Shown: positions 14,791 to 29,274 of the stretch, one piece after another
Layout: each line of letters opens with the position of its first letter
How positions within the stretch are numbered: the stretch's first letter is position 1
DNA from: a virus
Strand: one strand, 5' to 3'
IMG/VR virus record: IMGVR_UViG_3300021375_000048
Coordinates: 1 to 47,382 of that record
DNA: 47,382 nt
Position numbers and translations under genes: made by a program
The notes under the pieces: model-generated
What the model was told of the DNA's origin: nothing
Database searches by the model: none
What the model saw: only the letters and a program-made list of their open reading frames with translations

Positions 14791-15481
14791 GAAAAAATTC
14801 TTCTTCCTCTACTAATCTTACTTCGTCTCCCCTTAAAACAAGAGACCTTCTATCTATATATCGTGCTGAAGGAGAAGGTGCATCTGCACCATGTGGTATC
14901 CTTCCATCAAAAATTATTAATCTATTTGGTTTAAACTCAACTTCTGCAATTTGGTGATTGTCTATATGTTCTTGTCTACCATCCAATCCTTGTTGCATTT
15001 CATTATACAGCCTTAATGTTCCACCCCATTCTTTATTCCAAAACTTATTGGTATAATAAAGGAATGAGAGATTCCACTCATCTTCCTCTTGACAGTCTGC
15101 ATGTGTTGTTCCTTGTAAACCTTGTGTTTGTGAGTTTAGTCCCATGTATTGAAATCTCTCCCACTTAAATCCAAATTCTGTTTGTAGTCTTCTGTTTAAA
15201 TAGTAAGGAAATACTGTATGGAGTTTATCCATATTCTTTTCTAATTTCATGTCCTCTCTATAATAAGTTGCACCCCAAAAACTATGATGAGGTAGTCCTG
15301 TTGGACTTCCACTACTTACTTGATTAGTTTTAGACCAAAGGTTATTAGCAACTATGTAATCATCAAAATGGTGATGCAGTTCAGTTGCTAGATAGTTATC
15401 TAAGACATATACATCTTTAAGTGGTAAATCTTTTATTTTAAAAGGTTCGTCTATGTGGACGACTTTTATGTCATCATACAT
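14762..15481 (-). CDS. 2OG-Fe(II) oxygenase, prolyl-hydroxylase-like
   Basis: A 239-aa double-stranded beta-helix dioxygenase. Metal ligands are visible as His127-x-Asp129 (GTTHADCQ) and His197 (GRIPHGADAP). Arg207 or Arg212 (RRSLVLRGD) is placed to bind 2-oxoglutarate. The intervening WNLSFLYYTNKFWNKEWGG...LRLYNE region matches the P4H-type fold common in marine T4-like phages. The family hydroxylates protein side chains (Pro, Lys, Asp) or small molecules; the substrate here is unknown. The nearby proline-rich repeat proteins are candidate targets. It starts 3 bases past the upstream gene. Confidence 0.87.
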   Translation of the reverse strand: MYDDIKVVHIDEPFKIKDLPLKDVYVLDNYLATELHHHFDDYIVANNLWSKTNQVSSGSPTGLPHHSFWGATYYREDMKLEKNMDKLHTVFPYYLNRRLQTEFGFKWERFQYMGLNSQTQGLQGTTHADCQEEDEWNLSFLYYTNKFWNKEWGGTLRLYNEMQQGLDGRQEHIDNHQIAEVEFKPNRLIIFDGRIPHGADAPSPSARYIDRRSLVLRGDEVRLVEEEEFFHANDRISHI

Positions 15482-16071: not shown

Positions 16072-17643
16072 TTACAATAGATTTTTTACTTTATTATAAT
16101 CTTCTAAGTTATTTATGTGACTAGAATCCATATCATTTATCCACGGGCCTCCCCTAGTATAATGGATTCCACTATAGTCCCACTTTACATCAGGATTATC
16201 ATAACCCTCAACAAATATATATTTTTCAGGTATGGGACTAATCTTATCAGTCCATTCAAATTGATGTAATTGAGCTCCAGTCCATGTATTTACAACTTCG
16301 GGTGTTAACTTTTTACAGTCTTCATGTCCATTATTAAAGAACATCATTGAAGACCATAACTTACATGGGTAATCTATGTTCACCTCTCCGTCAAATTTAG
16401 TTTCGTCATGTTTTATTTGAGGATACTTAATACATGCAATTGCATCATCTGTATTTAAATAGTAAAACATGGGTAATAATGATTTACTAAAAATAAAATC
16501 ATCATCTATAAACAAACTGAAACCTTCATAGTTTTCTAAGTAGGGGATTAAGAATCTACTATATGTAAACCATGTTGATTGATTTTCATATGGTCTTTTG
16601 TATTCAGGTATTTTGGATACATCTAAAAATTTAATTTCGGGTATAAACTTATTATAGTTTACAAGTCTTCCACCCCCAATAGATTGTTTTATAGACTTTA
16701 GTATGGATTCCTTACATACATTTTCTAATCCATTGTGTCTACTATCATAACCTATGTAGATATTCAATGGTTTCCCTTTTGCAAGTTTAGTGACTTTTTC
16801 ACTATGTTCCCAAACATACTTTCTGAAATCAACATTACTAAAGTCTGCTTGGAACTCTATAGTTCCCATTGTCCATATTGCAGAAAGACCTTTGTATTTT
16901 GGTTTTCTAAATCCATTACAAACTTTATCTTGCCAGTACTCTAAACATTGCTTGACTGTTAATGGACTTGATGGTATAATATCATGTGAATCCCATAATA
17001 ATAATTCGTGAGTTGGGTCTTCCATCTCTTCAAAACAACCTGAACGAACAGAGCCTGGGTGAATCATTAATTGTATTCTATCTCCACACATTTGTGTAAG
17101 ACCTTGTATGGGTGCCCACAATCCTTCTTCTTGTATACTTTGAGTTAACCAATGTGCTTTTGCACTATGATAATACATTGAGTTCAATGCAACTGGAAAG
17201 TCTTCTGCTTCAAAATCTCCCTCTTCTAGTTCTTCTCCTGCATAGTCTCCAATATAAACTTCTTTATCATTTATAGGTTCTGATACTGCAAATTTTGTAG
17301 AAGGAGCGCCATGTTCATTAATAGAACCTGATGTATAAATTTCGGGTAAGAATCTATGATATGAGTTTGCTTGAAATCTGAGACCTTGCCAACCAATTAA
17401 TTTACCGTCTCTTCTAAGTTGTTCTAAATCAGACCACTTACATAATTTAAGTGGAGGCATGTTTTCAAACATGTATTCAAGAATCTTAAAAAATTCAGAT
17501 TCTTCGTCTATGTTAGATAAGTCGTTTATTGCACCTAAATGCCATTGGTCTATTTCCCTTCTAGACCTATGGTCTAAATCTTTGAATGACTCGGGGAATG
17601 TTAAAAGTTCTTTTGTTTGCTCTAAAGTTTTTAATTTGTCCAT
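16072..17643 (-). CDS. GT8-like glycosyltransferase with an extra N-terminal domain
   Basis: A 523-aa, two-part protein. Residues about 292-523 form a GT-A fold: NIYIGYDSRHN (294-304), TWFTYSRFLIPYLENYEG, the DxD-type FIDDDF (379-384), then LTPEVVNTWTGAQLHQFEW and IHYTRGGPW with a likely metal ligand His494. This should transfer a sugar from a nucleotide donor. Residues 1-285 are not part of a typical GT8. Residues about 157-207 (WLTQSIQEEGLWAPIQGL... IHPGSVRSG) faintly resemble a ParB/sulfiredoxin-like fold (inference). It lies between the repeat-protein genes and two oxygenases, suggesting virion or cell-surface modification. Confidence 0.83.
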   Translation of the reverse strand: MDKLKTLEQTKELLTFPESFKDLDHRSRREIDQWHLGAINDLSNIDEESEFFKILEYMFENMPPLKLCKWSDLEQLRRDGKLIGWQGLRFQANSYHRFLPEIYTSGSINEHGAPSTKFAVSEPINDKEVYIGDYAGEELEEGDFEAEDFPVALNSMYYHSAKAHWLTQSIQEEGLWAPIQGLTQMCGDRIQLMIHPGSVRSGCFEEMEDPTHELLLWDSHDIIPSSPLTVKQCLEYWQDKVCNGFRKPKYKGLSAIWTMGTIEFQADFSNVDFRKYVWEHSEKVTKLAKGKPLNIYIGYDSRHNGLENVCKESILKSIKQSIGGGRLVNYNKFIPEIKFLDVSKIPEYKRPYENQSTWFTYSRFLIPYLENYEGFSLFIDDDFIFSKSLLPMFYYLNTDDAIACIKYPQIKHDETKFDGEVNIDYPCKLWSSMMFFNNGHEDCKKLTPEVVNTWTGAQLHQFEWTDKISPIPEKYIFVEGYDNPDVKWDYSGIHYTRGGPWINDMDSSHINNLEDYNKVKNLL

Positions 17644-17676: not shown

Positions 17677-18609
17677 TTAAGAGGATATAGGTGTTCCTGG
17701 CCAGTTTTGTTGTAATGCACCGTCCCAACGGATAACAGGTGTTCTACCTTGTCTAGCATATGTTGCAGGTTGTCTGTTTTGATATGTAGTAGGTGTTTGA
17801 CCTTGTCTAGCATATGTACTAGGTTGTCTGTTTTGATATGTAGTAGGTGTTTGACCCTGTCTTGCATATGTACCAGGCTGTCTGTTCTGATAAGTGAATG
17901 GTGTTCTACCAGTTCTCTGATAAGTTCCAGGCTGTCTGTTCTGATAAGTGAATGGTGTTTGACTATTCCTTATATTAGGTTCTTGTCCATTTACAGGATT
18001 TCTATAGATTACAGGTTGTCTGTTCTGATAAGTGAACGGTGTTCTACCTTGTCTAGCATATGTAAACGGACTTCTATGTTGATACGTAAACGGTGTTTGA
18101 CCCTGTCTTGCATAGGTAAACGGACTTCTATGATTATAGGTAAATGGTGTTCTACCCTGTCTTGCATAGGTAAATGGTGTTTGACTATTCCTTATATTAG
18201 GTTCTTGTGCATTTACAGGGTTTCTATATGTAAATGGTTGTCTATTATTATAAGTAAAGGGCAACTGATATGAAACAGGGTTTCTGTATGTAAATGGTTG
18301 TCTATTATTATAAGTAAATGGCAACTGATATCCAACAGGGTTTCTGTATGTAAATGGAGACCTATGTTGATATGTACTAGGTTGTCTTGCATTAGCAATA
18401 TATGGAACCCTATAGGTAAACGGATTCCTATAGATATTAGGTTGTCTTGCATTAGCAATATATGGAACCCTATATGTAAATGGATTCCTATAGATTACAG
18501 GTTGTCTTGCATTGGCAATATACGGAACCCTATAGGTAAACGGATTCCTATAAATATTAGGTTGTCTAGCATTTCCTATATTTGGTTGTTGGGTATTTCC
18601 TATTGCCAT
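17677..18609 (-). CDS. Proline/tyrosine repeat virion protein, no C-terminal domain
   Basis: A 310-aa protein, almost all repeats of the form P-x-[TI]-[YA] with Arg, Gln and Asn between. Prolines recur at 6, 8 or 10 residues, always even, up to about residue 295. Repeat subtypes are clustered: three ARQPNIYRNPFTYRVPYIAN-like units first, then YRNPVxYQLPFTYNNRQP, then ARQGxTPFTY, then QNRQPxTYARQGQTP. This implies growth by tandem duplication. Acidic residues are nearly absent, so the protein is strongly basic. It starts MAIGNTQQP, like its paralogue at 27111-28019, and ends with a short unique tail (RWDGALQQNWPG). It is probably a tail or fibre component; no characterised family is recognised. 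Confidence 0.8.
   Translation of the reverse strand: MAIGNTQQPNIGNARQPNIYRNPFTYRVPYIANARQPVIYRNPFTYRVPYIANARQPNIYRNPFTYRVPYIANARQPSTYQHRSPFTYRNPVGYQLPFTYNNRQPFTYRNPVSYQLPFTYNNRQPFTYRNPVNAQEPNIRNSQTPFTYARQGRTPFTYNHRSPFTYARQGQTPFTYQHRSPFTYARQGRTPFTYQNRQPVIYRNPVNGQEPNIRNSQTPFTYQNRQPGTYQRTGRTPFTYQNRQPGTYARQGQTPTTYQNRQPSTYARQGQTPTTYQNRQPATYARQGRTPVIRWDGALQQNWPGTPISS
17724..18588 (-). repeat. Coding tandem repeats, Pro/Tyr type (array 1)
   Basis: Tandem units of 18-30 bases with higher-order units of about 48-60 bases. Neighbouring units are nearly identical at the DNA level, for example the three copies between about 18375 and 18590. They are in frame and free of stops, and are therefore protein repeats rather than a CRISPR or satellite. 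Confidence 0.9.
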
Positions 18610-18624
18610 TTGTTTATTTTCCTA

Positions 18625-18912
18625 TTATACCGCTGTTAAGTATGGGCAAGCATCTATTAAAGTCCAAACTTCACTACCACCTTCTACTACTGGTAAGTCG
18701 TATGACATTGCAATTGCTTCATTAATTCTATTTGTTTCCAACCGTTCAAAATGTTCTGTTGCAGTTGAAGTATCAACAGTTCCACCTACAGTATAATTCG
18801 TAAGTGGCATAGCTAAATGAACAGTGTAATCTACACTATTACATGTGACTGTTGAAAGAGGACTTCTTTGATAAAAATCTTGTCCGTCTATTGTTATTGT
18901 TGTTATTGACAT
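18625..18912 (-). CDS. Small structural protein between two repeat genes
   Basis: A 95-aa protein beginning MSITTITIDGQDFYQRSP, mostly beta at the start and helical around HFERLETNRINEAIAMSYDL. I do not recognise a family. Its start and ribosome site lie inside the 5' flank of the duplicated block shared with 28019-28487. At the other copy the same flank leads into the 302-aa repeat protein instead. It is probably a minor tail component or insertion between the paired repeat genes. Confidence 0.68.
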   Translation of the reverse strand: MSITTITIDGQDFYQRSPLSTVTCNSVDYTVHLAMPLTNYTVGGTVDTSTATEHFERLETNRINEAIAMSYDLPVVEGGSEVWTLIDACPYLTAV

Positions 18913-19380
18913 TTCTTATTCTCCATTAAAATAATGCTATTGTACCACTTACACCATTACTTAAAGTATATGTAGGTACTGAAGGTGCAGGAATAGTAAG
19001 TGTAAAAGATGTGGCAGTTGGTAGAGACGGCGCTGAATATGTCATAGATGCAACTGGCACATTTGTAGTTCCAGCAGGTGTTATCAGTTGCACATATGTA
19101 AACTGATTACCATACCATAAAGAATTTGGTGCGTTGTTAAAGTTTCCAAGTGTTAAGGTGGTGGTACCTGAGCTGATAGGACTCCTGAAAGAAAGCCATT
19201 GGTGTTGGATATAAGGAGATACATCAGGCAAAGAAGACCATGGACTTGAACCAATACCAGTGCTATATTGTGTTGGCCCAGCACCAGCAGACCTAAATCC
19301 TTGATAATGGTATGCATAATTAGATAATGCTCCACCAGTGACAGGATAAGGGCCCCAAATTGCAGGGTCGGGATAAGTGT
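18912..19380 (-). repeat. Copy 1 of a 469-bp nearly identical duplication
   Basis: Aligns without gaps to 28019-28487 with about 31 mismatches by hand count (roughly 93% identity). It covers the last 151 codons of the 490-aa gene, the short gap, and the ribosome site and ATG of the next gene. Confidence 0.93.
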
Positions 19381-20398
19381 ATGTGGTTGGACTTCTAAAA
19401 CTATATGTAAATGGACTCTGTTTACTACTAGGTGACTGAGCATTTGCAGGGTATCTAGCATTGTATGTGAACGGACTCTGTCTACTACTAGGTGACTGAG
19501 CATTCGCAGGGTATCTAGCATTGTATGTAAATGGACTCTGTTTATTACTAGGTGACTGAGCATTTGCAGGATATCTAGCGTTATACGTAAATGGTGTTTG
19601 TCTATTCCTTATATTAGGTTGTTGTGCAGAAACAGGGTTTCTATATCCTCTTGGAGTTCTAGCATTTGCAATATAAGGTGTTTGACCATTTACAGGATTT
19701 CTATATCCTCTTGGACTTCTAGCATTTGCAATATAAGGTGTTTGACCATTTACAGGGTTTCTGTATGTAAATGGAGACCTATGTTGGTATGTGTTCGGTT
19801 GTCTAGCATTAGCAATATACGGATACGGTTGTTGTGCTGACCTTATATTAGGTTCTTGTGCATTTGCAATATAAGGATACGGTTGTTGTGCATTCCTTAT
19901 GTTAGGTTCTTGTGCAGATGCAATATACGGATAAGGTTGTTGTGCAGCTGCAATATAAGGCGACTGTTTATTTGAAGGATTTTGATATGTAAACGGCGAC
20001 CTATGTTGATAAGTATTCGGTTGTCTTGCATTCGCAATATATGGAGTCTGACTGTTTGCTATGTACGGATACGGTTGCTGTGCGTCTGCGATATATGGGG
20101 TCTGACTATTAGCAATATACGGATAAGGATTTTGTGCATTAGCAATATATGGAGTCTGAGCATTTGCGATATACGGATAAGGATTTTGTCTAGAAGCAAT
20201 ATATGGGGTCTGACTATTTGCAATGTATGGATATGGTTGTTGAACAGATTGTTGACCTGATGCATTATTCCACCCTGTAGGGGTCTTTACATATATTTGG
20301 TCAACAGCTTTCCATGTTGTAGAACCTGTTTTTACCCAACCACCCTGAGTTGAACTCCAACCCGAAGGTGTTTTTACCTTTTGTGACCCTGTTGCCAT
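18926..20398 (-). CDS. Proline/tyrosine repeat virion protein with conserved C-terminal domain
   Basis: A 490-aa protein in three parts. Residues 1-48 are a cap rich in Trp and Thr-Pro-x-Gly-Trp (TPSGWSSTQGGW, AVDQIYVKTPTGW). Residues about 50-340 are PY repeats of the type QQPYPYIANAQTPYIANAQ plus PFTY and NIRNAQ variants, with prolines 2, 6 or 8 apart. Residues 340-490 are a unique domain starting YTYPDPAIWGPYPVTGG and ending SGTIALF. The last domain is 92% identical to that of the 413-aa protein. The layout (anchor, extended shaft, terminal domain) suggests a fibre with a receptor-binding or trimerisation tip; this is inference. Confidence 0.82.
   Translation of the reverse strand: MATGSQKVKTPSGWSSTQGGWVKTGSTTWKAVDQIYVKTPTGWNNASGQQSVQQPYPYIANSQTPYIASRQNPYPYIANAQTPYIANAQNPYPYIANSQTPYIADAQQPYPYIANSQTPYIANARQPNTYQHRSPFTYQNPSNKQSPYIAAAQQPYPYIASAQEPNIRNAQQPYPYIANAQEPNIRSAQQPYPYIANARQPNTYQHRSPFTYRNPVNGQTPYIANARSPRGYRNPVNGQTPYIANARTPRGYRNPVSAQQPNIRNRQTPFTYNARYPANAQSPSNKQSPFTYNARYPANAQSPSSRQSPFTYNARYPANAQSPSSKQSPFTYSFRSPTTYTYPDPAIWGPYPVTGGALSNYAYHYQGFRSAGAGPTQYSTGIGSSPWSSLPDVSPYIQHQWLSFRSPISSGTTTLTLGNFNNAPNSLWYGNQFTYVQLITPAGTTNVPVASMTYSAPSLPTATSFTLTIPAPSVPTYTLSNGVSGTIALF
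19381..20248 (-). repeat. Coding tandem repeats, Pro/Tyr type (array 2)
   Basis: In-frame tandem units. The high-coordinate half is dominated by PYPYIANxQ/PYIANxQ units of 24-30 bases. The low-coordinate half has three nearly identical copies of a unit of about 60 bases encoding SPFTYNARYPANAQSPSS-type sequence, and two copies encoding TPYIANARSPRGYRNPVNGQ. Confidence 0.9.
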
Positions 20399-20440
20399 AT
20401 TCTATATTACCTTAAAAAGTTAAAAAATCCTATACTCTAA

Positions 20441-22396
20441 TTAAGAGTATAGAACCCATAAATCACCAACTGCACCATCACTACCTGTAGGAGATGAAGT
20501 TGACTGATATATGTTTCTCACATATCCACCTGAGTTCGATGTATTACTAGTTGTAATTGTTCCTAGTGTTGCATTAGAACCACTCTCATATTTAGTGTTT
20601 AAGGCAGTCTGTAATCCGTCAACATTTGCAATCGTATGATTATGTGAATCATCTGCAACTGCGGCTGTAATTGTTATATCACTTGTACCATTAAATGATG
20701 CAGAACCTGAAAGGTCTCCACCTAATGATATTGTTCTTGCAGATGTTAATTGAGCAGCACTAGATGCAGTAGAAGCGTTTCCTGTTAACGAACCTTCAAA
20801 AGAAGTTGCCTTAACATTATATGAACCAAATGTCCACTCGTCTTCCGACTCATCCCATAATAGAGATACGTTAGCAGAAGTTCCTCTTTCTACTTCAAGA
20901 CCAGCGTCTTCAGTAGGTGTTCCAGTCACATCATTGTTAACAACAACAATGTTATCTGAGACATTAAGAGTTGCAGTGTTAACAGTAGTTGTTGTGCCAT
21001 TTACGGTCAAGTCACCTGAAAGTGTGAGGTCTCCAAAAGATACGTTATCAGAAGTTCCAACTGCCTGTCCAATACTAATTGCACCGCCACTGAATCCAAC
21101 ACCAGTACCTGCACTTAAATGAGCACGTGTCTCAGCAGCACTTGGGCCTGTATATGTTATTACACCAGTACCACTATTATATGAAAGTGAACCATCTCCA
21201 CCTGAATCGGTGACTGATAATTTACCTCTTACTTGTGAATCACTAATACCTGAGTATGTAATTACACCAGTAGAATTATTGTATGATAATGAACCGTCTC
21301 CTGCACTATCGGTGACTGATACTAATCCTCTTACTTCTGCGTCTGTTCTTTCTGTAAATGAGAATGCACCTGTTGAACTGTTGTATGATAAATCACCACC
21401 AGCAGAGAATAAACCTCTAACATCACCGTCTGATAATCCAGCAAGTGTAAGTGTTCCAGCAGAATCGTCATATGTAGAAGTGATGTTTGTTCCACCAACC
21501 ACTAAACCGTTTACGATGTCTTCTATTTCTTCTTGTGTTTTACCTGAAGAGTTAATTGTGTATGTTCCAGCACTGTCATCATATGTTGTTGTGATATTTG
21601 TACCAGCAACCAATAATGCATTAACTCTGTCATCGACTCTTTCGTTTGTAAAGAATAGATTTCCATTTTCTGAAAGGTCTCCAGTGTCTAGTGTGACTGC
21701 ACTACCTAAGGCAGTTGCACTTCCGTTAACTGTGATTGAACTGTTAGCAAGTTTTGCGTTTGAGATAGAACCCGCCAACATAGCGTCTGTAATACCAAGT
21801 GCTTTTACTTGTAATGTGTCTGAACTTGTTTCGATTGAACTATCGTCAACATTTACTGCAAGTGATAATGCACCTGTAGTTCCACCACCTGATAAACCGT
21901 CTCCAGCAGTGACACTTTCGATATCACCAGCATCGTTTGTGAATGATATTACACCAGTTGAGGAGTTATATGACAAATCTCCACTTGCACTAATTGATGC
22001 TCTTGCTCTTGTTGTTGTAAAGTATTCGTTTGTCGAACCTTCTGAAAGGTCATCTGTATCAAATGCAGACATATTAACTGCGATGTCGTCTGTATTAACT
22101 GTGATACCTGTTCCAGCACCAATATTAAGTGTTGCATCACCTGAAGTAGCAGTACCAGTTAAACCAGCACCAGCATTAACTCCAGTGATATCACCCTGTT
22201 GTCCGTTGATTGTAAGTGTTCCAGCACCATCGTCATATGCTAATGATACACCTGTACCTGCAACAAGTAAACTACTTACTCTATCGTCTATAGATTCTGT
22301 TATTGAAGAACCGACTAATGCACCTGATGAGTTGATTACCTCAACACCAGCAACTGATAATCCATTCTTAATATTGAAATTCTTTTCTCCAGCCAT
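20441..22396 (-). CDS. Tail fibre-like protein, 651 aa, with beta repeats
   Basis: A low-complexity Gly/Ser/Thr/Asp-rich fibre. The N-terminus (NIKNGLSVAGVEVINSSGALVG) resembles the 76-aa gene just upstream. Internal repeats include AGTNITSTYDDSAGTLTL-type units (three) and GDLSYNSSTGVISFT-type units (at least four). A shared GDLTVNGTTTTVNTATLNVSD module follows, and the C-terminus is DGAVGDLWVLYS. Such repeats are typical of marine T4-like fibre or spike proteins. The start overlaps the previous stop (TAATG). It is probably part of the adhesive tail apparatus; which T4 fibre it replaces is unclear. Confidence 0.83.
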   Translation of the reverse strand: MAGEKNFNIKNGLSVAGVEVINSSGALVGSSITESIDDRVSSLLVAGTGVSLAYDDGAGTLTINGQQGDITGVNAGAGLTGTATSGDATLNIGAGTGITVNTDDIAVNMSAFDTDDLSEGSTNEYFTTTRARASISASGDLSYNSSTGVISFTNDAGDIESVTAGDGLSGGGTTGALSLAVNVDDSSIETSSDTLQVKALGITDAMLAGSISNAKLANSSITVNGSATALGSAVTLDTGDLSENGNLFFTNERVDDRVNALLVAGTNITTTYDDSAGTYTINSSGKTQEEIEDIVNGLVVGGTNITSTYDDSAGTLTLAGLSDGDVRGLFSAGGDLSYNSSTGAFSFTERTDAEVRGLVSVTDSAGDGSLSYNNSTGVITYSGISDSQVRGKLSVTDSGGDGSLSYNSGTGVITYTGPSAAETRAHLSAGTGVGFSGGAISIGQAVGTSDNVSFGDLTLSGDLTVNGTTTTVNTATLNVSDNIVVVNNDVTGTPTEDAGLEVERGTSANVSLLWDESEDEWTFGSYNVKATSFEGSLTGNASTASSAAQLTSARTISLGGDLSGSASFNGTSDITITAAVADDSHNHTIANVDGLQTALNTKYESGSNATLGTITTSNTSNSGGYVRNIYQSTSSPTGSDGAVGDLWVLYS

Positions 22397-22626
22397 TATA
22401 ATGTTCCTCCGTCAATCTGAACATTCGCCAGAGTTTTAGATGTAGATGCGTCTGATAAATGCGTGTCTACTAATGAATTAGCGTAGTACTTAGCGGAACC
22501 TTCTGCAAGATTATCAGTTGTTAAATCTGAAATTGCAGCTGCAACGATTTTACCTGATGAATTGATTACTTCGGTTGTTCCGACACTGACTCCGTATTCT
22601 ACTACAAATTTGTTTTGTGTTGCCAT
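22396..22626 (-). CDS. Mini fibre protein, 76 aa (possible truncated paralogue)
   Basis: The N-terminus KFVVEYGVSVGTTEVINSSGK parallels the next gene's INSSGAL region. The middle LTTDNLAEGSAKYY is a fibre-repeat motif, and the C-terminus ends QIDGGTL like two other genes here (IDGGTF). It looks like the two ends of a fibre gene with the shaft removed. Intact start, stop and TAATG coupling to the next gene argue that it is still expressed. Confidence 0.7.
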   Translation of the reverse strand: MATQNKFVVEYGVSVGTTEVINSSGKIVAAAISDLTTDNLAEGSAKYYANSLVDTHLSDASTSKTLANVQIDGGTL

Positions 22627-22669
22627 TTTTTCATGTGTCCTATTTTGAAAAATTACTATATCTACATAC

Positions 22670-22677
22670 TATTTAGA
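22670..22677 (-). promoter_or_regulatory. Variant late promoter (TCTAAATA) before the mini fibre gene
   Basis: TCTAAATAGTATG on the minus strand in the 83-base gap after the 247-aa gene, about 43 bases from the start codon. The same variant box occurs at 13191. A ribosome site AGGACACATGAAAAA follows. Confidence 0.45.
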
Positions 22678-22709
22678 AGATAGTGTTCTTCATAAAGGTA
22701 TGTTTTAGA

Positions 22710-23453
22710 TTAAACTTTTAATAAATTTCTACTTATTTTAAATGCAGTTGAAGAAGCTGATGCAGGAGTGACTCTTAGTCTAACATTTCCTGAATTAGTA
22801 TCAACAGAAAGATTAAACAATGAAGTGTTTGTATAGATATCTCCAAATTGAGAAAAATAAGCATTAGTAGAATTATGTATCACCATAACTTCTGTTGCAT
22901 GGTAGTTAGTTCCTTGTGATGCTTGTATGTGATACTTTGCACTTCTATAACTTAATAGAGGAAATGTATCTAAATCCACTTCAGTTGTTGCAGTTGTTGT
23001 TAAATTTTGGTCTGCGTCCATTCTCAAATTACTTAGAGAAAGTGGGCCTACTGCAGTTAACTGACCTGTTGCTTCTATATCACCAGCTTTAAAGTCTGCA
23101 TATGCATAACCTGTTCCACTAATGTTTACTGTATTTCCTGGCTCAACTTCTAATCCATCAAATAATTTCCAAGTTGAATCAGTTGCGTCTCTAAAAAGAC
23201 CCGTAAATTCACTTGCACCATCTGATAGACCGTCATCATAGTTTCCGTATATACCTATATCAATGATATCACTTGTAGTGTTTCCACTTGCAAGTTCAAA
23301 CATAGAATCAGTGACTGAAACTGTTGTTGAGTCAATTGTTAAACTAGTTCCTTGAACAGTAAAGTTTCCAGTGACTGTTAAGTCTCCGTCTACGGTGCTG
23401 TTATCTAAGGATTGAAACCCTAAATCAGTAAAGAACTTAGTTTTAGTTGCCAT
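22710..23453 (-). CDS. Tail fibre-like protein, 247 aa
   Basis: Residues about 18-110 carry the module DGDLTVTGNFTVQGTSLTIDSTT followed by FELASGNTTSDIIDIGIYG, shared with the 521- and 651-aa fibres. Residues about 155-247 carry a C-terminal module (LDTFPLLSYRSAKYHIQ... RVTPASASSTAFK) shared with the next two genes upstream (136 and 274 aa). Its ATG lies 5 bases from a TATAAATA box that directly follows a terminator, so it heads its own transcript. It is probably a short fibre or fibre-tip component. Confidence 0.78.
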   Translation of the reverse strand: MATKTKFFTDLGFQSLDNSTVDGDLTVTGNFTVQGTSLTIDSTTVSVTDSMFELASGNTTSDIIDIGIYGNYDDGLSDGASEFTGLFRDATDSTWKLFDGLEVEPGNTVNISGTGYAYADFKAGDIEATGQLTAVGPLSLSNLRMDADQNLTTTATTEVDLDTFPLLSYRSAKYHIQASQGTNYHATEVMVIHNSTNAYFSQFGDIYTNTSLFNLSVDTNSGNVRLRVTPASASSTAFKISRNLLKV

Positions 23454-23458
23454 AATAC

Positions 23459-23466
23459 TATTTATA
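23459..23466 (-). promoter_or_regulatory. T4-type late promoter, leaderless geometry
   Basis: TATAAATAGTATT directly followed by the ATG of the 247-aa fibre gene. It starts within about 10 bases of the end of the preceding terminator's T-tract. Confidence 0.83.
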
Positions 23467-23497
23467 TAAAAAAAGAGGGGGACTTAGTCCCCCTCTA
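23467..23497 (-). terminator. Strong rho-independent terminator
   Basis: AGAGGGGGAC (23474-23483) pairs perfectly with GTCCCCCTCT (23487-23496) around TTA, giving a 10-bp stem. On the minus strand a seven-base T-tract follows. It ends the transcript of the 136-aa gene and everything upstream of it. Confidence 0.93.
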
Positions 23498-23519
23498 AAA
23501 TAATTCTATTTTATTTCGC

Positions 23520-23930
23520 TTAAGCGTCTACTGTCAATCTATCAAACTTTACAACTGTTGAACTAGATGATGCAGGTGTACATAATAGTCTCAAATCTGA
23601 GCCTGATATGTCTGCATCAAAAGTTGCAAGACTTTTAGATTTCATAGTTCCGTATTGAGTTAACGTGACGGCCGAACCATCATGAACAACAACAAGTTCT
23701 GAAGAGTGAAAATCACTTCCCTCTGACATTGCAATAACATATCTTGCAGCTCTGAAATCTGCGTGAGCAAATGTATCGAGTGCAAATTCTGTAGTTGCAG
23801 TTTTTGTTGCGTTTCCTGATGTTCTATCCTTCGATTTGACTTTCTTAGTAGTCGTAATCTCATCGTTGTCTACATCAAATTGTATACCACGAATTAACTC
23901 AGCGATTTTAAATGCGTTAGTTTTCGCCAT
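23520..23930 (-). CDS. Small fibre-module protein, 136 aa
   Basis: Consists of a short N-terminal part (FKIAELIRGIQFDVDNDEI) and the C-terminal module FALDTFAHADFRAARYVIAMSEGS...LLCTPASSSSTVVKFD shared with the 274- and 247-aa proteins. The start has AAGGAGTAAAAC overlapping the previous stop. It is probably a tail-surface or fibre-tip component; its exact role is unknown. Confidence 0.75.
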   Translation of the reverse strand: MAKTNAFKIAELIRGIQFDVDNDEITTTKKVKSKDRTSGNATKTATTEFALDTFAHADFRAARYVIAMSEGSDFHSSELVVVHDGSAVTLTQYGTMKSKSLATFDADISGSDLRLLCTPASSSSTVVKFDRLTVDA

Positions 23931-23940
23931 GTTTTACTCC

Positions 23941-24765
23941 TTATGAAAGTCTAATTTGGAAGGTTTTAAATGTTGTATTTGTATTTGCAGGTGTGACTAA
24001 TAATCTCATGTTTCCACTATCTATATCACTTGAAAGTGAGAATAATGAAGAACTTGAGAATGCATCACCGTATTGTACAAAGTACGCATTTGAACCATCG
24101 TTAATTAATAATACTTCAGTCGCATGAGTTCCAGCACTAGCATGAGATGCCATTACGACATACTTAATTGCTTTATTACCAGTTGCGTTTGAACTCAAGA
24201 CTTGGTCAGCCGTAGTTGCAGTCAATTCACTTGTTGTGAAGAAACCTTGAACTAAGTTTGAAATCGAAGTCTGAGCGACTACCTCTAAAACATCTCCTGA
24301 AACTGCAGTTGCTTGTAGTGTAATTGAACTAGTAGAAGTTCTTGCATAGTCGTCTCCGACAACAAGTTTAATACCGTTCAGGTAAACCTGTTCTAAACCA
24401 AGTGTATACGATAAAGATGTTCCGTTATCGTCATTACCTGAGAATAGAGTTTGGTTTCCTGTCACACTGTAAGTAAATGTAGTGACACCAGTAGAAGGTG
24501 CGTCTGTGAAACCTAATGTTCCACTTCCGTTAGTGGACAATAGTTGTCCACTTGTACCATCACTGGTTGGGAATGTTAATGCATCATTTATTGTTAGAGA
24601 GGCTGGGTTAGACCCAACTTCTACAACAGCAGCGCTTCCATCGTTCTTTTCAGTGTAAAACCTACCGTGGTAAGTATTTACAGCAAGTTCCCCTAGTGAT
24701 AAATCACTAGTCGCAGGGACTTCGTTCTGAGTCGAACTTCTTTTAAATTGGATTACTGTTGCCAT
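23941..24765 (-). CDS. Tail fibre-like protein, 274 aa
   Basis: Starts MATVIQFKRSSTQNEVP...LSLGELAVNTYHGRFYTEK, the well-known N-terminal attachment-type motif of phage fibres (basic RS followed by GELAxN). The middle is a beta-rich segment with FTYSVTGNQTLFSGNDDNG. The C-terminal module (IKYVVMASHASAGTHATEVLLIND...LLVTPANTNTTFK) is shared with the next two genes. It shares its N-terminus with the 521-aa fibre, so both may dock at the same kind of site. Ribosome site TAGGAGAGTAAA. Confidence 0.8.
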   Translation of the reverse strand: MATVIQFKRSSTQNEVPATSDLSLGELAVNTYHGRFYTEKNDGSAAVVEVGSNPASLTINDALTFPTSDGTSGQLLSTNGSGTLGFTDAPSTGVTTFTYSVTGNQTLFSGNDDNGTSLSYTLGLEQVYLNGIKLVVGDDYARTSTSSITLQATAVSGDVLEVVAQTSISNLVQGFFTTSELTATTADQVLSSNATGNKAIKYVVMASHASAGTHATEVLLINDGSNAYFVQYGDAFSSSSLFSLSSDIDSGNMRLLVTPANTNTTFKTFQIRLS

Positions 24766-24802
24766 TTTACTCTCCTATTGAATTGGTTAATCGAACTATT
24801 AA

Positions 24803-26368
24803 TTAAAATGTTCCACCATCAATAGCTGTAATTGCAACTGCACCTGAAGTGAGTGTGAAATTATCAGAAGCAAATGAAGCAATACCTTTTACTGAAGTTG
24901 TTGCATCTTTAATAGATACAGCACCACTTGAAACATCAAAGATAGCAGAAGCAAAACTTGCGATACCTTTATTAGATGTTGTAGCGTCTTCTGCAGACAA
25001 TGTGATTGCACCGTCAGCGTTAGTCACATCAAGTCCTTCACCAGCAGTTAAAGTTGCAAGTTCCATGTCTCCATTAGAACCATTACCAATCATTAACTGT
25101 CCAGCTGTTGGAGCTGCACCGTCTAATGAAGTAATTGAACCACTTAGAGCAAGACCAGTTGCTTCTAATCCACCGAATACTGCGTCCATCGCTGTACCAC
25201 TGAATACTGAAGAACTATCTGTTGCAGCTTTTAATGCAGTAAATTTTTGAGTATTTTCGTCCATACCGAAGAAACCAAGTTTAGCAGCTCCATCGTTATA
25301 TTTGAATTTAATACCTCTATCTAAGTTATCATCTGAAGCATCAGAACCAATTTCAAACACTGGGTCTGCAATTGAAACTGTTGTTGAGTCTACAGTTGTT
25401 GTTGTTCCTGAAACAGTTAAGTTTCCAGTGATTGTAGCATTACCTGCAACACTGATATTTGTAGATGTGATATCATCTGAAGTAAGTGTTCCGTCAACAT
25501 CTACGTCATTAAATGTCACGTTAGATGTTGTTGCAACTGCCTGACCAATAGCGAAAGTCGCTGCTTGACCTGATACAGAAGTTGTCACACCAGTTCCACC
25601 AGTAAATGTGATTGACTGAGAGTCTAAGTCGACTGCACCAGTTCCTGAATCACCAGCAAGGTCTAAGTCCTGTGCTGTCACTTGTGAATCTACATATGCT
25701 TTAACAGATTGTTGAGAAGGAACTTTAACTGCAGAGTCTGAAGCCATATTGTCTTCGTCTACAAAGAAGTCTATATTTCCAACTTGAACTGCGTTATCAG
25801 CGATTGTGACTGCACCACTTGATGCCATAGTCACGTCACCACTTAGTGATACGTTATCAAATGAATTAGAACCATCATGAACAAGCAATTGTCCGCCTGT
25901 TGGAGATGATATATCTGAGTCTGTTGCACCTGCAAGTGTTGATGTTGTTGATAAGAATGATAAGTTTCCACTACCGTCTGTACCAATTACTTGGTTTGCA
26001 GAACCGTCTGCAGTTGGAAGTGTGAATGTTGTTGAAGCACTTAATGTATCAGCAGCTTTCAATGCAACGAAGTTTGTTCCGTTGTCTGAATCTTCTAATA
26101 ATTGTACACTTGCACCAGCAGTTGAACCATTACCAACTTTAAAGTTAGATGGAGTTGCTTTTGCACCGTCCATGATGTCTGTATAGTATTTACCACCGAC
26201 TTCGTGAATAGCTGCAGCCCCTAATGAGTCTACTGATTCTATGTATAATTTAGCACTTGCACCATCATTCGACCTATCCTGAACGTACGCCAATTCACCT
26301 TCTGATAAATCAGATACTGCAGGAGCAGCCGAACCCGTACTTCTTTTAATTTGAATTACTGTTGCCAT
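24803..26368 (-). CDS. Tail fibre-like protein, 521 aa
   Basis: I use the ATG giving MATVIQIKRSTGSAAP, which has the site TAGGAAAATAAAA and aligns with the start of the 274-aa paralogue. An ATG at 26413 would add 15 residues without a good site. It contains the GELAYVQD N-terminal motif, long Ala/Ser/Asp-rich beta repeats, the shared GNLTVSGTTTTVDSTTVSIAD module near residue 320, and two TTSxKGIASFASxxFxxxSGAV repeats near the end. The C-terminus is AIDGGTF. It is probably a structural fibre. Confidence 0.82.
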   Translation of the reverse strand: MATVIQIKRSTGSAAPAVSDLSEGELAYVQDRSNDGASAKLYIESVDSLGAAAIHEVGGKYYTDIMDGAKATPSNFKVGNGSTAGASVQLLEDSDNGTNFVALKAADTLSASTTFTLPTADGSANQVIGTDGSGNLSFLSTTSTLAGATDSDISSPTGGQLLVHDGSNSFDNVSLSGDVTMASSGAVTIADNAVQVGNIDFFVDEDNMASDSAVKVPSQQSVKAYVDSQVTAQDLDLAGDSGTGAVDLDSQSITFTGGTGVTTSVSGQAATFAIGQAVATTSNVTFNDVDVDGTLTSDDITSTNISVAGNATITGNLTVSGTTTTVDSTTVSIADPVFEIGSDASDDNLDRGIKFKYNDGAAKLGFFGMDENTQKFTALKAATDSSSVFSGTAMDAVFGGLEATGLALSGSITSLDGAAPTAGQLMIGNGSNGDMELATLTAGEGLDVTNADGAITLSAEDATTSNKGIASFASAIFDVSSGAVSIKDATTSVKGIASFASDNFTLTSGAVAITAIDGGTF

Positions 26369-26405
26369 TTTTATTTTCCTATAAAAATTAATTGTTTTTA
26401 AATGA

Positions 26406-26490
26406 CCCGTCACTTTCGGGGCCGTTGATTACATAATATTTAAAACCTGTCCACTCACTATGTGGGTCGATACCTTCACTGGTTGGTATC
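26406..26490 (-). other. Non-coding gap with three tandem stem-loops
   Basis: The 148 bases between the 81-aa gene and the 521-aa fibre start hold no gene. Three small hairpins can be drawn: CCCG/CGGG (26406-26420), CCAC/GTGG (26451-26465) and GATACC/GGTATC (26469-26490). Each loop contains TCACT (AGTGA in the RNA). None has a proper U-tract. They may be an RNA-processing or translation-control element. Confidence 0.4.
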
Positions 26491-26505
26491 CTTGATTTGT
26501 ATTAG

Positions 26506-26513
26506 TATTTAGA
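26506..26513 (-). promoter_or_regulatory. Possible variant late promoter (TCTAAATA) before the 521-aa fibre
   Basis: TCTAAATACTAATAC on the minus strand just after the stop of the 81-aa gene. It is about 137 bases from the fibre start, so the mRNA would carry the stem-loop region as its leader. It is weak because the box deviates from consensus. Confidence 0.35.
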
Positions 26514-26516
26514 CAA

Positions 26517-26762
26517 TCAAAATGTTCCACCGTCTATAGAAGTGGTAGTTGTCCATTTATCAGAAGAGGCATCATATGAAAGAAGTCCGTCATCTGTTTC
26601 TGTTGCATTTACATCTGCAAGTTCGTTTAAATTTTTAGTTGATATGTCTGTAGAGGTTGATGCATTTCCTATCGCAACCTGTTTTGCACGAAGATTACCT
26701 TGTCCTTGTATTCTTCCACCGATAGTTGCAACTCTACTTAATGTTCCTTTTATGTTGCTCAT
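26517..26762 (-). CDS. Small fibre-associated protein, 81 aa
   Basis: Starts MSNIKGTLSRVATIGGRIQGQG, contains the fibre motif LNELADVNATETDDGLLSYDASSDKW, and ends TSIDGGTF. The LLSYDASSDKW type of segment is common in marine phage fibre connectors. It overlaps the end of the upstream gene by 4 bases (ATGA). It may be a short adaptor. Confidence 0.72.
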   Translation of the reverse strand: MSNIKGTLSRVATIGGRIQGQGNLRAKQVAIGNASTSTDISTKNLNELADVNATETDDGLLSYDASSDKWTTTTSIDGGTF

Positions 26763-27091
26763 CTTGTCACTCCTGGCGTCACAATTGCCTGTCCTTCAAC
26801 AACTCTAGTTTTGTTTCCTCCACCACTGGTGACTGTCATGTCGTAAACATATCTACCAGCTTCTAATGCTGTTGTTTGTGTATCTGTTAATGCCATGGTC
26901 ACTTGCCCACTCGCTTCTTGTACGGTGCATGTGAATGTTCCACTTGCAGTTGCAGAAGAATATGTTTTTCTTATTTGTGCAGCTGCAGAATATCCTGACA
27001 TGTTTAATACATCACCTGAAGAGTCTGTGACATCTACAGTGATTGAAAAGTCAGCACCTTGGTCGATAAATATGTTTGCAAGTATAGCCAT
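26759..27091 (-). CDS. Small beta-sandwich structural protein, 110 aa
   Basis: IFIDQGADFSITVDVTDSSGDVLNMSGYSAAAQIRK is the recurrent start of a small Ig-like phage structural protein found next to fibre genes in many marine phages. The rest (VTMALTDTQTTALEAGRYVYDM) keeps the same beta pattern. Its ATG lies 6 bases from a TATAAATA box, suggesting a nearly leaderless mRNA. It could be a baseplate or fibre adaptor; I cannot assign it to a T4 gene. Confidence 0.76.
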   Translation of the reverse strand: MAILANIFIDQGADFSITVDVTDSSGDVLNMSGYSAAAQIRKTYSSATASGTFTCTVQEASGQVTMALTDTQTTALEAGRYVYDMTVTSGGGNKTRVVEGQAIVTPGVTR

Positions 27092-27097
27092 ATATAC

Positions 27098-27105
27098 TAT
27101 TTATA
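27098..27105 (-). promoter_or_regulatory. T4-type late promoter, leaderless geometry
   Basis: TATAAATAGTATAT followed directly by the ATG of the 110-aa gene, in the 19-base gap behind the 302-aa repeat gene. Confidence 0.84.
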
Positions 27106-27110
27106 CCTTT

Positions 27111-28019
27111 TTAACCCTTATTGAATTGAGCAGTTGGAACTGACTGGTGAATTTTCTCTAAAGTTCCACCATCATTGACATAAATCTCGTCAACCTTTTC
27201 TACACTTCCAGCATTATTTCTGTATACACCTTTAACTTTTGCAATCGGGCCAACTGTTCTAGTTGTTGTATATGGTTGTTGGAATGTATAATTTTGTTGG
27301 AAACTATAAGGTGATTGATATGCATGTTGATATGTTGAAGGTTGTCTAGCATTTGCAATATAAGGATTTCTATAGATTACAGGGTGTTGGTAAATACTAG
27401 GTTGTTGATTCACATATGTACTTGGAGTTCTTGCAGGTGTTTCAAAACTATATGATGCCTGACGGTTATATGTAAATGGTGTTCTACCCTGTCTTGCATA
27501 TGTACTTGGAGTTTGAGATATGTATGGGTATGGTTGTTGTGCGTTTGCCTCATATGGATACGGTTGTTGTGCATTTGCAATGTATGGGTATGTTGCTTGT
27601 GCAATATATGGATACGGTGTTTGTGCATCAGCAATGTATGGATAAGGTTGTTGTGCCTGAGCAACTGGTGTAGTTGCAGGTCTTCTTGCAGTATATGGGT
27701 ATGCTATCTGACCACTATTAATAAATGGATATGGATTCTGTTTATTTGCACTATATGGATAAGTTCTTACTGCAGTTGCAATAGGTCTTGTTCCACTTGT
27801 TTGTTTATTTGCTTGATACGACACTTGAACAATATGTGGATATTGTGCAGTGTTTTGTCTGTTTGCAGTAAAAGAATATGGTTGTTGTCTAATATTCTGA
27901 ACATTTACTGGTTGCCTTGTAGGTTGTTGAAAACTATAAGGTTGTTGAGATGTGACCTGCAATGTATATGGAGTCTGATATTGAAAACTATAAGGTTGTT
28001 GTGTTTGTCCTATTGCCAT
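27111..28019 (-). CDS. Glutamine/proline/tyrosine repeat virion protein with cap domain
   Basis: A 302-aa protein. It starts MAIGQTQQPYSF, paralogous to the 310-aa protein. Residues about 8-253 are PY repeats dominated by QQPYSF, PYPYIANAQ and PSTY units. Most proline spacings are even, with a few exceptions around residues 78-125. Residues 255-302 are a non-repeat cap containing KVKGVYRNNAGSVEKVDEIYVNDGGTLEKIH, a motif of phage fibre ends. Acidic residues occur almost only in the cap. Excellent ribosome site (GGAGGATAAGAA). It directly follows the 413-aa repeat gene. Confidence 0.8.
   Translation of the reverse strand: MAIGQTQQPYSFQYQTPYTLQVTSQQPYSFQQPTRQPVNVQNIRQQPYSFTANRQNTAQYPHIVQVSYQANKQTSGTRPIATAVRTYPYSANKQNPYPFINSGQIAYPYTARRPATTPVAQAQQPYPYIADAQTPYPYIAQATYPYIANAQQPYPYEANAQQPYPYISQTPSTYARQGRTPFTYNRQASYSFETPARTPSTYVNQQPSIYQHPVIYRNPYIANARQPSTYQHAYQSPYSFQQNYTFQQPYTTTRTVGPIAKVKGVYRNNAGSVEKVDEIYVNDGGTLEKIHQSVPTAQFNKG
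27260..27998 (-). repeat. Coding tandem repeats, Gln/Pro/Tyr type (array 3)
   Basis: In-frame degenerate tandem units of about 18-30 bases, for example six PYPYIA/PYPYEA-type units between about 27500 and 27650. It is more diverged than arrays 1 and 2, so it is probably older. Confidence 0.85.
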
Positions 28020-28487
28020 TTCTTATCCTCCATTAAAATAATGCTATTGAACCACTTACACCAGCACCTAAAGTATATGTAGGTACTGAAGGTGCAGGAA
28101 TAGTAAGTTGAAAAGATGTGGCAGTTGGTAGAGACGGCGCCTGATATGTCATAGATGCAACTGGCACATTTGTAGTTCCAGCAGGTGTCACTAGTTGCAC
28201 ATATGTAAACTGATTACCATACCATAAAGAATTTGGTTGATTGTTAAAGTTTCCAAGTGTTAAGGTGGTGGTACCTGAAGTGATAGGACTCCTGAAAGAA
28301 AGCCATTGGTGTTGGATATAAGGAGATACATCAGGAAAACTACTCCAAGGACTTGAACCAATACCAGTGCTATATTGTGTTGGCCCAGCACCAGCAGACC
28401 TAAATCCTTGATAATGGTATGCATAACTAGATAATGTTCCACCTGTCACTGGATACGGGCCCCAAATTGCAGGGTCGGGAAAAGTGT
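28019..28487 (-). repeat. Copy 2 of the 469-bp nearly identical duplication
   Basis: Gap-free match to 18912-19380. It covers the C-terminal 151 codons of the 413-aa gene plus the ribosome site and start codon of the 302-aa gene. Confidence 0.93.
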
Positions 28488-29274
28488 ATAATGCTGGTTG
28501 TCTTCCAATTGAAGGTGCAGGAATTTGAGCTGTATAAGGGTGTTGATAAGATATTTGTGCTATTACTGGAGTTTGAAATGTACTCTGAGAATTAGTAGGG
28601 TGTCTATAAGTTATCTGCGCCTGATGTTGATATGTAGTCGGGTGTTGATATGTTGCTTGACTATTGGTACTTACTTGGGCAGTGTATATAGTTGGGGTCT
28701 GATAATTCTGTTGATAACTATATGGTTGTGTTCCCTGTGCTTGATATATAGAAGGTTGTTGACCAGTATCATTAAATGTATAAGGTTGTTGTCCTTGTCT
28801 TTCATATGTTTGTTGATAATTCTGTTGAAAACTGTAAGGTGCTTGACCTTGTGTTGCATATGTAGAAGGTTGTCTTCCAGTTGCACTATATGGTGTTTGT
28901 CCTTGTCTTGCATATGTAAATGGCGTTCTTCCTGTTGCCTGATATATTATAGGCGCTCTTCCAGTATTTTGAGTAGTAGTTTGTGCATTTGCAATGTAAG
29001 GATATGTCTGTTGTGCAGATGCAATATATGGATAATTTGCAGTTGCCTGAACTATGGAAGGGGTCTGTCTATTTGCAATATAAGGTGTTTGTGCAGCTGC
29101 AGGTTGTCTTGCATTTGCAGGTTGTCTATTTTGATATGTAAAAGGTGTTTGTGCATTTGCAGGTTTTCTTGCAATATATTGTGCTATAATAGGTGTACGA
29201 CCTTGTGCAAGTCCCTGTCCTTGGTAGGGTTGTTGGAACGAAGTTCCTATATTTACATAAATTTCATCAGACAT
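28033..29274 (-). CDS. Proline/tyrosine repeat virion protein with conserved C-terminal domain
   Basis: A 413-aa protein. A very short cap MSDEIYVNIGTSF matches the DxIYV motif seen in the caps of the 490- and 302-aa proteins. Residues about 14-260 are diverse PY repeats (TPFTYARQGQTPYS, QQPYTFNDTGQQPSIYQ, ATYQHPTTYQHQ). Residues 263-413 are the unique YTFPDPAIWGPYP...SGSIALF domain, 92% identical to the 490-aa protein. The repeats differ much more between the two proteins than the domain does. It is probably a fibre shaft with a terminal binding domain. The upstream 597-aa fibre ends 1 base before its start. Confidence 0.82.
   Translation of the reverse strand: MSDEIYVNIGTSFQQPYQGQGLAQGRTPIIAQYIARKPANAQTPFTYQNRQPANARQPAAAQTPYIANRQTPSIVQATANYPYIASAQQTYPYIANAQTTTQNTGRAPIIYQATGRTPFTYARQGQTPYSATGRQPSTYATQGQAPYSFQQNYQQTYERQGQQPYTFNDTGQQPSIYQAQGTQPYSYQQNYQTPTIYTAQVSTNSQATYQHPTTYQHQAQITYRHPTNSQSTFQTPVIAQISYQHPYTAQIPAPSIGRQPALYTFPDPAIWGPYPVTGGTLSSYAYHYQGFRSAGAGPTQYSTGIGSSPWSSFPDVSPYIQHQWLSFRSPITSGTTTLTLGNFNNQPNSLWYGNQFTYVQLVTPAGTTNVPVASMTYQAPSLPTATSFQLTIPAPSVPTYTLGAGVSGSIALF
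28488..29235 (-). repeat. Coding tandem repeats, Pro/Tyr type (array 4)
   Basis: In-frame, degenerate repeat units of 18-33 bases encoding P-x-x-Y motifs, here including Ala/Thr/His-rich variants (TYQHPTTYQHQAQITYRHPT). No stop codons in frame. Less regular than arrays 1 and 2. Confidence 0.83.

Follow-up and report, generated by a model that had tools for sequence, protein, structure and literature searches.

Mirrored proline repeats in two shaft proteins of a T4-like phage suggest a fibre encoded in two antiparallel halves

The window analysed here is the whole IMG/VR virus record IMGVR_UViG_3300021375_000048, 47,382 bases from an uncultured marine phage, with T4-like structural genes on the minus strand and, among its fibre genes, four long proline-rich open reading frames (ORFs) termed A, B, C and D. 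The prolines of all four shafts keep to one parity of the chain, the proline pattern of A read forwards is that of B read backwards, the A and B shafts are matched in length, and B and D share a C-terminal tip. On these observations A and B are probably the separately encoded halves of one fibre shaft, an antiparallel β-ladder, and C and D may, less surely, form a second pair of the same kind.

The four ORFs lie on the minus strand without internal stops, as a first-pass annotation of the window had placed them (Table 1), and a full table of proline-to-proline (P-P) distances bears out the even spacing it had proposed. In the shafts 37 of 39 distances are even in A, 44 of 45 in B, 30 of 33 in C and 25 of 25 in D, where shuffling the residues of these stretches gives 46-47% on average, with maxima of 0.74-0.84 in 5000 shuffles. 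From P9 to P291 of A every distance is 6, 8 or 10, followed by 13 and 3; from P55 to P345 of B only 2, 6 and 8 occur, with 29 and 15 before P55 and odd values later, in the C-terminal domain. The odd values counted in the shafts of A (two) and B (one) sit at the ends of the stretches. The odd exceptions that had been seen in C are a 9 (P79-P88) and a 7 (P118-P125), the sum of which is even, with a further 9 at the end, while D is even up to residue 260 and has its odd distances in the C-terminal domain. The prolines are thereby all on one parity of an extended chain, and the reported near-absence of acidic residues also holds (they make up 0.7-1.2% of shaft residues, and the shafts carry a net charge of +11 to +35) within a low-complexity composition. 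The proposed unit P-x-[TI]-[YA] fits A (30 of 37 prolines) but describes far fewer of the prolines of B (22/44), C (11/33) and D (13/25).

The same rule governs the relatives. For A, 234 matches came up in IMG/VR, and the best 80, from 78 distinct loci, were used. We collected 97 P-rich ORFs from 96 IMG/VR loci and the window, picked by P, Y and Q content and not by spacing, and trimmed C-terminal domains before counting parity; their 100 stretches contain 4251 even and 228 odd P-P distances (shuffle 46% even). The commonest odd segments (PATP, PGTP, the anchor-shaft junction and PVIRWDG..WP) occur at shaft ends. When units are classed by their first four residues, 60 of the 554 unit starts are found at more than one length, and three of these 60 mix parities. 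Within the even segments, to which phase counts were confined, the parity opposite to proline is taken by Y in 3524 of 3536 positions, F in 1377 of 1389, V in 665 of 696 and H in 269 of 276; I shares the proline parity in 1275 of 1352, and T, N and Q are mixed. Expressed as a z score for the best 120-residue window, parity is 12.8-20.3 for A-D, stays at or below 3.2 in the twelve other window proteins examined, and is at least 12.5 in 45 P-repeat ORFs against a median of 0.8 in 226 other ORFs. Nine of the 226 exceed 5, namely four large upstream fibres (5.1-5.9) and five ORFs at loci L050 and L056 (6.6-12.7). The latter five overlap or adjoin gene A and seem to be other reading frames of it.

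Several features point to selection at the protein level: Pro and Tyr codons vary in A and B, six comparisons of A and C give ratios of nonsynonymous to synonymous substitution rates (dN/dS) of 0.08-0.23, and alignment gaps among A relatives are even in length in 2595 cases and odd in 120, although these are pairwise counts over related sequences and are not independent. For B and D, dN/dS is 0.30 and 0.64, from one comparison each with the tips included.

Parity is joined by a second and more specific regularity, in that the proline gaps of A from N- to C-terminus match those of B from C- to N-terminus, with a gap of 10 in A lying opposite 8+2 in B. In the window all 38 A prolines stand opposite B prolines at one ungapped offset, residue i of A facing residue 346-i of B; the B shaft has 47 prolines, and the surplus lies in PYP or at the end. 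Over 56 distinct pairs the mean proline match is 0.92 for the cognate B reversed, 0.55 for the cognate B forward and 0.61 for non-cognate reversed partners of similar length (449 comparisons). The reversed orientation exceeds the forward one in 56 of 56 pairs, and the cognate B is top-ranked of 56 in 48. Restricting the set to 25 representatives gives the same picture (reversed above forward in 25/25, cognate B first in 24/25), with z scores of 4.6-18.7 against gap-order shuffles. When shaft ends are located by an even-gap walk, the lengths of the A and B shafts in 59 distinct pairs have a Pearson correlation of 0.984, lie within 10 residues in 43, and correlate at 0.96 over 25 representatives, across a range of 174-532 residues for A.

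The mirror extends to residues other than proline. A pairing matrix was derived from 39 of the 56 pairs, those below a match of 0.9 being excluded, and the opposite residues enriched in it besides P:P are E-F, H-R, I-R, G-Y, F-Q, N-V, Q-T and A-Y. The window A/B pair scores 363, against 196 +/- 12 for unit-order shuffles and 6 in the forward direction. Palindromic shafts were considered as a cause of the mirror and rejected, as A reversed on itself and B reversed on itself score 207 and 208, near the A/B unit-order shuffles and not the A/B score. Nor does the mirror come from a DNA inversion, as A and B have no minus-strand DNA similarity. One relative encodes a single 561-aa ORF (L096:4585-6267) with a B anchor and an A C-terminus, like two halves fused in a hairpin; its outgoing and return arms pair in part, the highest-scoring of 22 trial turns reaching 45 where shuffles average 24 and go no higher than 34.

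The matrix trained on A and B, with proline ignored, was also applied to C and D. Cognate C against reversed D scores 51-132, where dyad shuffles average 19-21 and forward comparisons give 17-29, and the reversed orientation is favoured over both in 7 of 7 tests, several of which involve close relatives. In a six-by-six table of residue scores, 5 of 6 rows have the cognate D as the best or joint best partner. The scores also exceed those of unit-order shuffles (window 95 versus 60 +/- 8; L090 114 versus 81 +/- 7; L091 171 versus 98 +/- 11), the trimmed shaft lengths are close (C/D 245/247, 259/262, 257/260 and 202/205), and when prolines only are counted, five of six phages have a C/D match above every one of 60 gap-order shuffles.

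A set of observations weighs against the paired reading. Among the 59 A/B pairs, 16 have a length difference above 10 residues, which reaches 86 in L049 and 76 in L153, and the length matching is not independent of parity because the shaft ends are set by the even-gap rule. The ungapped proline match is low in L153 (0.66), L049 (0.68) and L031 (0.73), possibly through start choice or repeat-number differences. The extra B prolines in PYP stand opposite R or Q and not P. Close relatives show 15 co-changes across 8 comparisons that overlap (pooled odds ratio 4.8), a level of covariation that shifted controls sometimes equal. In the fused ORF of L096 pairing is limited to residues 98-187 and 430-523, without a clean hairpin. 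AlphaFold2 monomer models of A (34 sequences) and D (20 sequences) have mean predicted local distance difference test (pLDDT) scores of 32.8 and 32.6 and strandless shafts; a monomer run is unable to show a hetero-assembly, yet it gives no support. For the second pair, window cross pairs score close to C/D or above it (A/D 112, A/C 99, C/B 91 and D/B 96 against 95), L087 is the phage in which C/D fails to exceed gap-order shuffles by prolines alone, and by prolines the cognate D is the top partner for L091 only, of six. These cross-pair scores and proline-only ranks make C:D pairing less sure than A:B.

In antiparallel β pairs, sites alternate between hydrogen-bonded and non-hydrogen-bonded, and proline lacks an NH. 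Were A and B to run antiparallel and in register over ~280 residues, facing prolines would fit non-bonded sites only, which would put every proline on the same parity. By this β-sheet geometry the even spacing, the opposite-parity Tyr and Phe, the matched lengths and the mirrored order could all follow from antiparallel β pairing as a single cause. We infer from these patterns that A and B would touch and adopt β structure; their presence in the virion and the number of strands are guesses. B would lead from the base, where its conserved anchor lies, out to a variable tip, and A would return from the tip end to its conserved C-terminus, so that both conserved ends would meet at the base. The shaft would then be a stiff A:B ladder, or perhaps three, with a length of ~93 nm for 283 residues if the chains lie along the axis; a trimer of A:B ribbons is a guess. 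T4 long tail fibres are ~144 nm (PMC3004832). The mirror in A/B proline spacing argues for hetero-oligomers rather than four homomeric fibres. We also lean, with rather less assurance than for the two halves themselves, towards a residue-level complementarity code in which each shaft is the reversed partner of the other in a protein antiparallel duplex, with the rules P:P, F:E/Q, R:H, I:R, Y:A/G, N:V and T:Q; such a pair would lengthen and shorten together, and two fibres per virion would share an exchangeable tip.

The ends of the proteins are consistent with this arrangement. An even-proline shaft follows the first 50 residues of B in the top-ranked 80 of 148 related loci, which amount to 50 distinct proteins, and the C-terminus of A holds invariant R294, W295, D296 and W303 in 34 of 34 aligned sequences. 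By eye, the C-terminal part of C (KVKGVYRNN...IYVN) resembles the B anchor. The tips behave otherwise. The B tip of the window shares 92% identity with the D tip and only 26-59% with the B tips of nine relatives, the shafts of which are 60-96% identical. Within one phage (same contig or sample) the identity of the B and D tips is 87-95% in five cases; in two others it is 39-42%, which is still the best match in the row. The B and D shafts have 25-39% identity. Identity falls sharply at the tip border in 4 of 5 pairs; for L010/L084 the ungapped count fails. The pattern resembles gene conversion, which would copy a receptor-binding module from one gene to another ~8 kb away. B and D share a fast-evolving tip that is likely the receptor-binding part, and this variable tip would bind the host; it is a likelier site of binding than the shafts, for which anionic surfaces or polysaccharide had been proposed earlier as targets.

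In other relatives the tip is a Hint/intein-like domain or a short tail, often Gly-rich. Hint/intein-like B tips, a kind absent from the window, are found in L032, L037, L040, L045, L053, L060 and L065, and Pfam Hint or Vint passes the cut-off in 4 of 7 Hint-type B proteins scanned. Twelve such C-termini have a Cys after a Gly-rich run and HN near the end, nine of them with a GHP motif. In none of the twelve is HN followed by C, S or T (the next residue is A, G, M, F, L or Y), which makes splicing unlikely; cleavage may occur and would suggest self-cleaving fibre ends. Where the tip is globular, the B-A gap exceeds 200 nt (17 of 17 loci, against 1 of 41 others), with small ORFs seen there; tip classes were set by text patterns, and three loci of the short class have large negative gaps from start choice. 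The 95-aa gene between B and A is nearly confined to globular-tip loci and is possibly a tip partner or chaperone.

Searches placed the shafts in no known family, in keeping with the earlier suggestion of a new fibrous architecture. Sequence and profile searches matched them to no solved structure or curated Pfam family: A, B, C and D are all without a Pfam match above cut-off, a search of the PDB with the A sequence found nothing, one with a 34-sequence A profile returned only an unrelated chain at E 0.18, and one with B returned nothing at E 10, A and B being the two proteins searched there. PHROG matches are weak, the best (E 0.00096) being to the C-terminal part of C. Foldseek with the D model gave nothing at E <= 0.001; its best hit, avian reovirus sigmaC at 0.079, was not used. 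One B relative barely passes the 30-residue Pfam model Cementoin (28.0 versus 27 bits). We know of no published account of a fibre of this kind, on the basis of searches of an open-access library.

The gp37 needle of T4, a homotrimer, is among the known fibres closest in form. Its tip is a six-stranded antiparallel β-needle (PMC7291167, PMC9659904), and a needle of that type assembled from two chains, (A:B)3, would be one geometry of the A:B ladder and not a competitor to it; we regard this particular geometry as conceivable, though on balance doubtful, and strand number is not readable from sequence. The proposed fibre would, like the gp37 tip, be a slender adhesin of antiparallel strands that ends in a receptor-binding part, in a T4-like phage; the mirror register suggests the antiparallel pairing. 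The gp37 tip also has some parity, with its best window (811-930, z 3.6) inside the solved chain 785-1026, yet this z is far under the values of the P-repeat ORFs, and A has no similarity to solved chains beyond E 0.18. The needle is formed by three chains of a single gene product (PMC7291167, PMC9659904). It is not known to have a proline code. The shafts of the window differ in being encoded by two genes, in spans of 174-532 residues in relatives, in their mirrored prolines and in the lack of any sequence match. A triple-stranded β-helix such as those of T4 gp5 and gp12, which would make each protein a homotrimeric prism having strands of 6, 8 or 10 residues and prolines at its corners, seems quite unlikely, even though known β-helices have 8 (gp5) or ~6 (gp12) residues per turn (PMC3004832) and one relative has a sub-threshold Pfam match to the gp5 trimerisation domain (E 0.013). 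Among 12 T4 proteins gp5 has the strongest parity (z 5.7 in window 441-560; 4.0 for the fixed stretch 436-575), the others except gp37 staying at or below 3.3, and gp12 is without a signal (z 1.0). The gp5 repeat is VxGxxxxx (PMC4576200), even-numbered and with residue parity like the window shafts, but it is a Gly/Val octapeptide in three copies of one chain, whereas units in the window begin with Pro and mostly have 6, 8, 10 or 2 residues. A triple β-helix alone does not predict that A should mirror B in length and order, and the PYP prolines, two residues apart, would not both be corners. We know of no mirrored-repeat partner for gp5.

Collagen would place Gly at every third residue, and the shafts contain 1.4-4.9% Gly; the adenovirus triple β-spiral has a ~15-residue repeat with a Pro/Gly turn, and the units here are even, with super-units of 18 or 20 residues by eye. 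The Orsay virus delta β-bracelet is likewise a viral shaft whose fold was new at its time and which has its own sequence motif, but it is a pentamer of 5-residue strands and 3-residue loops (PMC7565637) and is not known to have a proline code. Disordered, prion-like linkers rich in R, Y, Q and N, with the mirror arising from another cause such as a condensate or adhesive function, would agree with the low-complexity composition and the very low AlphaFold confidence; disorder gives no reason for strict parity, even-length gaps, matched lengths or reversed register, and we consider it very improbable. It is rather unlikely that A is an assembly partner, a template or chaperone that pairs with B in folding and stays outside the virion fibre. 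A has no tip, and the mirror suggests pairing and not the place of A, whereas a length close to that of the B shaft in most phages and a conserved C-terminus suit a stoichiometric structural part.

The gene neighbourhood is that of a T4-like tail (Table 1). Among isolates the window portal is closest to those of Methylophilales phage Melnitz (57% identity) and Pelagibacter phage Mosig (55%), and from its sequence the phage appears to be a T4-like (Kyanoviridae-related) myovirus, with the fibre genes between the baseplate wedge and a neck/terminase/sheath/portal block; the sheath, terminase and wedge genes were named by sequence and by gene order in Melnitz and Mosig, without a family search. 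Genes close by have tail-fibre PHROG matches, and A-D are putative virion proteins by their place in this T4-like tail-fibre cluster. The cluster of the 651-aa upstream fibre protein precedes B in 23 of 23 neighbourhoods laid out. That protein tends to be longer where A is longer (r = 0.79, n = 45), which hints at scaling to the shaft. The two clusters of 2-oxoglutarate (2OG) oxygenases were found in 22 and 20 of the 23 neighbourhoods and that of the 523-aa glycosyltransferase-like protein in all 23. These genes lie after A, and hydroxylation or glycosylation of the shafts is possible. A prolyl-hydroxylase link is only an idea: Mosig encodes several 2OG oxygenases, yet the stretch of it that was read has no P-rich shaft. 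The ORF at 14762-15481 has the PHROG label DNA endonuclease V, yet Pfam gives a 2OG oxygenase.

Table 1. Features of the window that bear on the proposed fibre
Feature	Position	Strand	Description
Head-tail adaptor	12058-12873		PHROG 211
2OG-Fe(II) oxygenases (two)	13203-13934 and 14762-15481	minus	PF13759 E 1.7e-19, PF13640 E 8.1e-9
Gene flanked by both 2OG oxygenases	13897-14790	minus	function unassigned
523-aa gene directly after A	16072..17643	minus	weak glycosyltransferase-8 similarity, PF01501 E 0.0049 (below cut-off)
Gene A	17677..18609	minus	ORF, 310 aa; proposed return-strand shaft protein
A C-terminus	17680..17736	minus	RWDGxLxQxWPxTPxS, conserved; proposed base end
A shaft	17737..18585	minus	residues 9-291; mirrors B shaft
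95-aa gene between B and A	18625..18912	minus
Gene B	18926..20398	minus	ORF, 490 aa; proposed outgoing-strand shaft protein with anchor and tip
B C-terminal tip domain	18929..19381	minus	residues 340-490
B shaft	19388..20236	minus	residues 55-337
B N-terminal anchor	20249..20398	minus	residues 1-50, KVKTPxGW...IYVKTPTGW
Large tail-fibre protein directly upstream of B	20441..22396	minus	651 aa; PHROG 697 and a tail-fibre PHROG
110-aa protein adjoining C	26759-27091		L-shaped-tail-fibre assembly similarity: PHROG 3304 E 1.2e-23; Pfam LtfC 25.5 bits (cut-off 27)
Gene C	27111..28019	minus	ORF, 302 aa; proposed D partner
Gene D	28033..29274	minus	ORF, 413 aa; short N-terminal DEIYVNIG segment, even-proline shaft 16-260, B-like tip 263-413
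D tip	28036-28488		similar to B tip

The relatives come from metagenomes. Stretches of 48-49 kb from Melnitz and Mosig, the nearest by portal, contain no P-rich even-spaced ORF, a single scan of GTDB genome contigs gave no relative, and B and D, the queries run with the low-complexity filter on, had no match in a phage-isolate collection (C not searched). Matches to A among isolates were confined to five Pseudomonas phages, and the one protein examined has a SAASNTG repeat without parity (z 2.7), so that these matches were set aside as low-complexity. A cyanophage host was considered and rejected, a psbA-family match being found in none of 7 contigs (61-146 kb, possibly fragments).

If the A:B architecture holds, it would be a fibre of two genes whose mirror-matched chains zip together antiparallel. 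Partner choice over hundreds of residues would then be readable from sequence, pairing rules for β structure could be tested on dozens of natural pairs, and long programmable protein fibres would be suggested. For the T4-like phages known so far from metagenomes, it would explain how an adhesin is built and how its tips are swapped.

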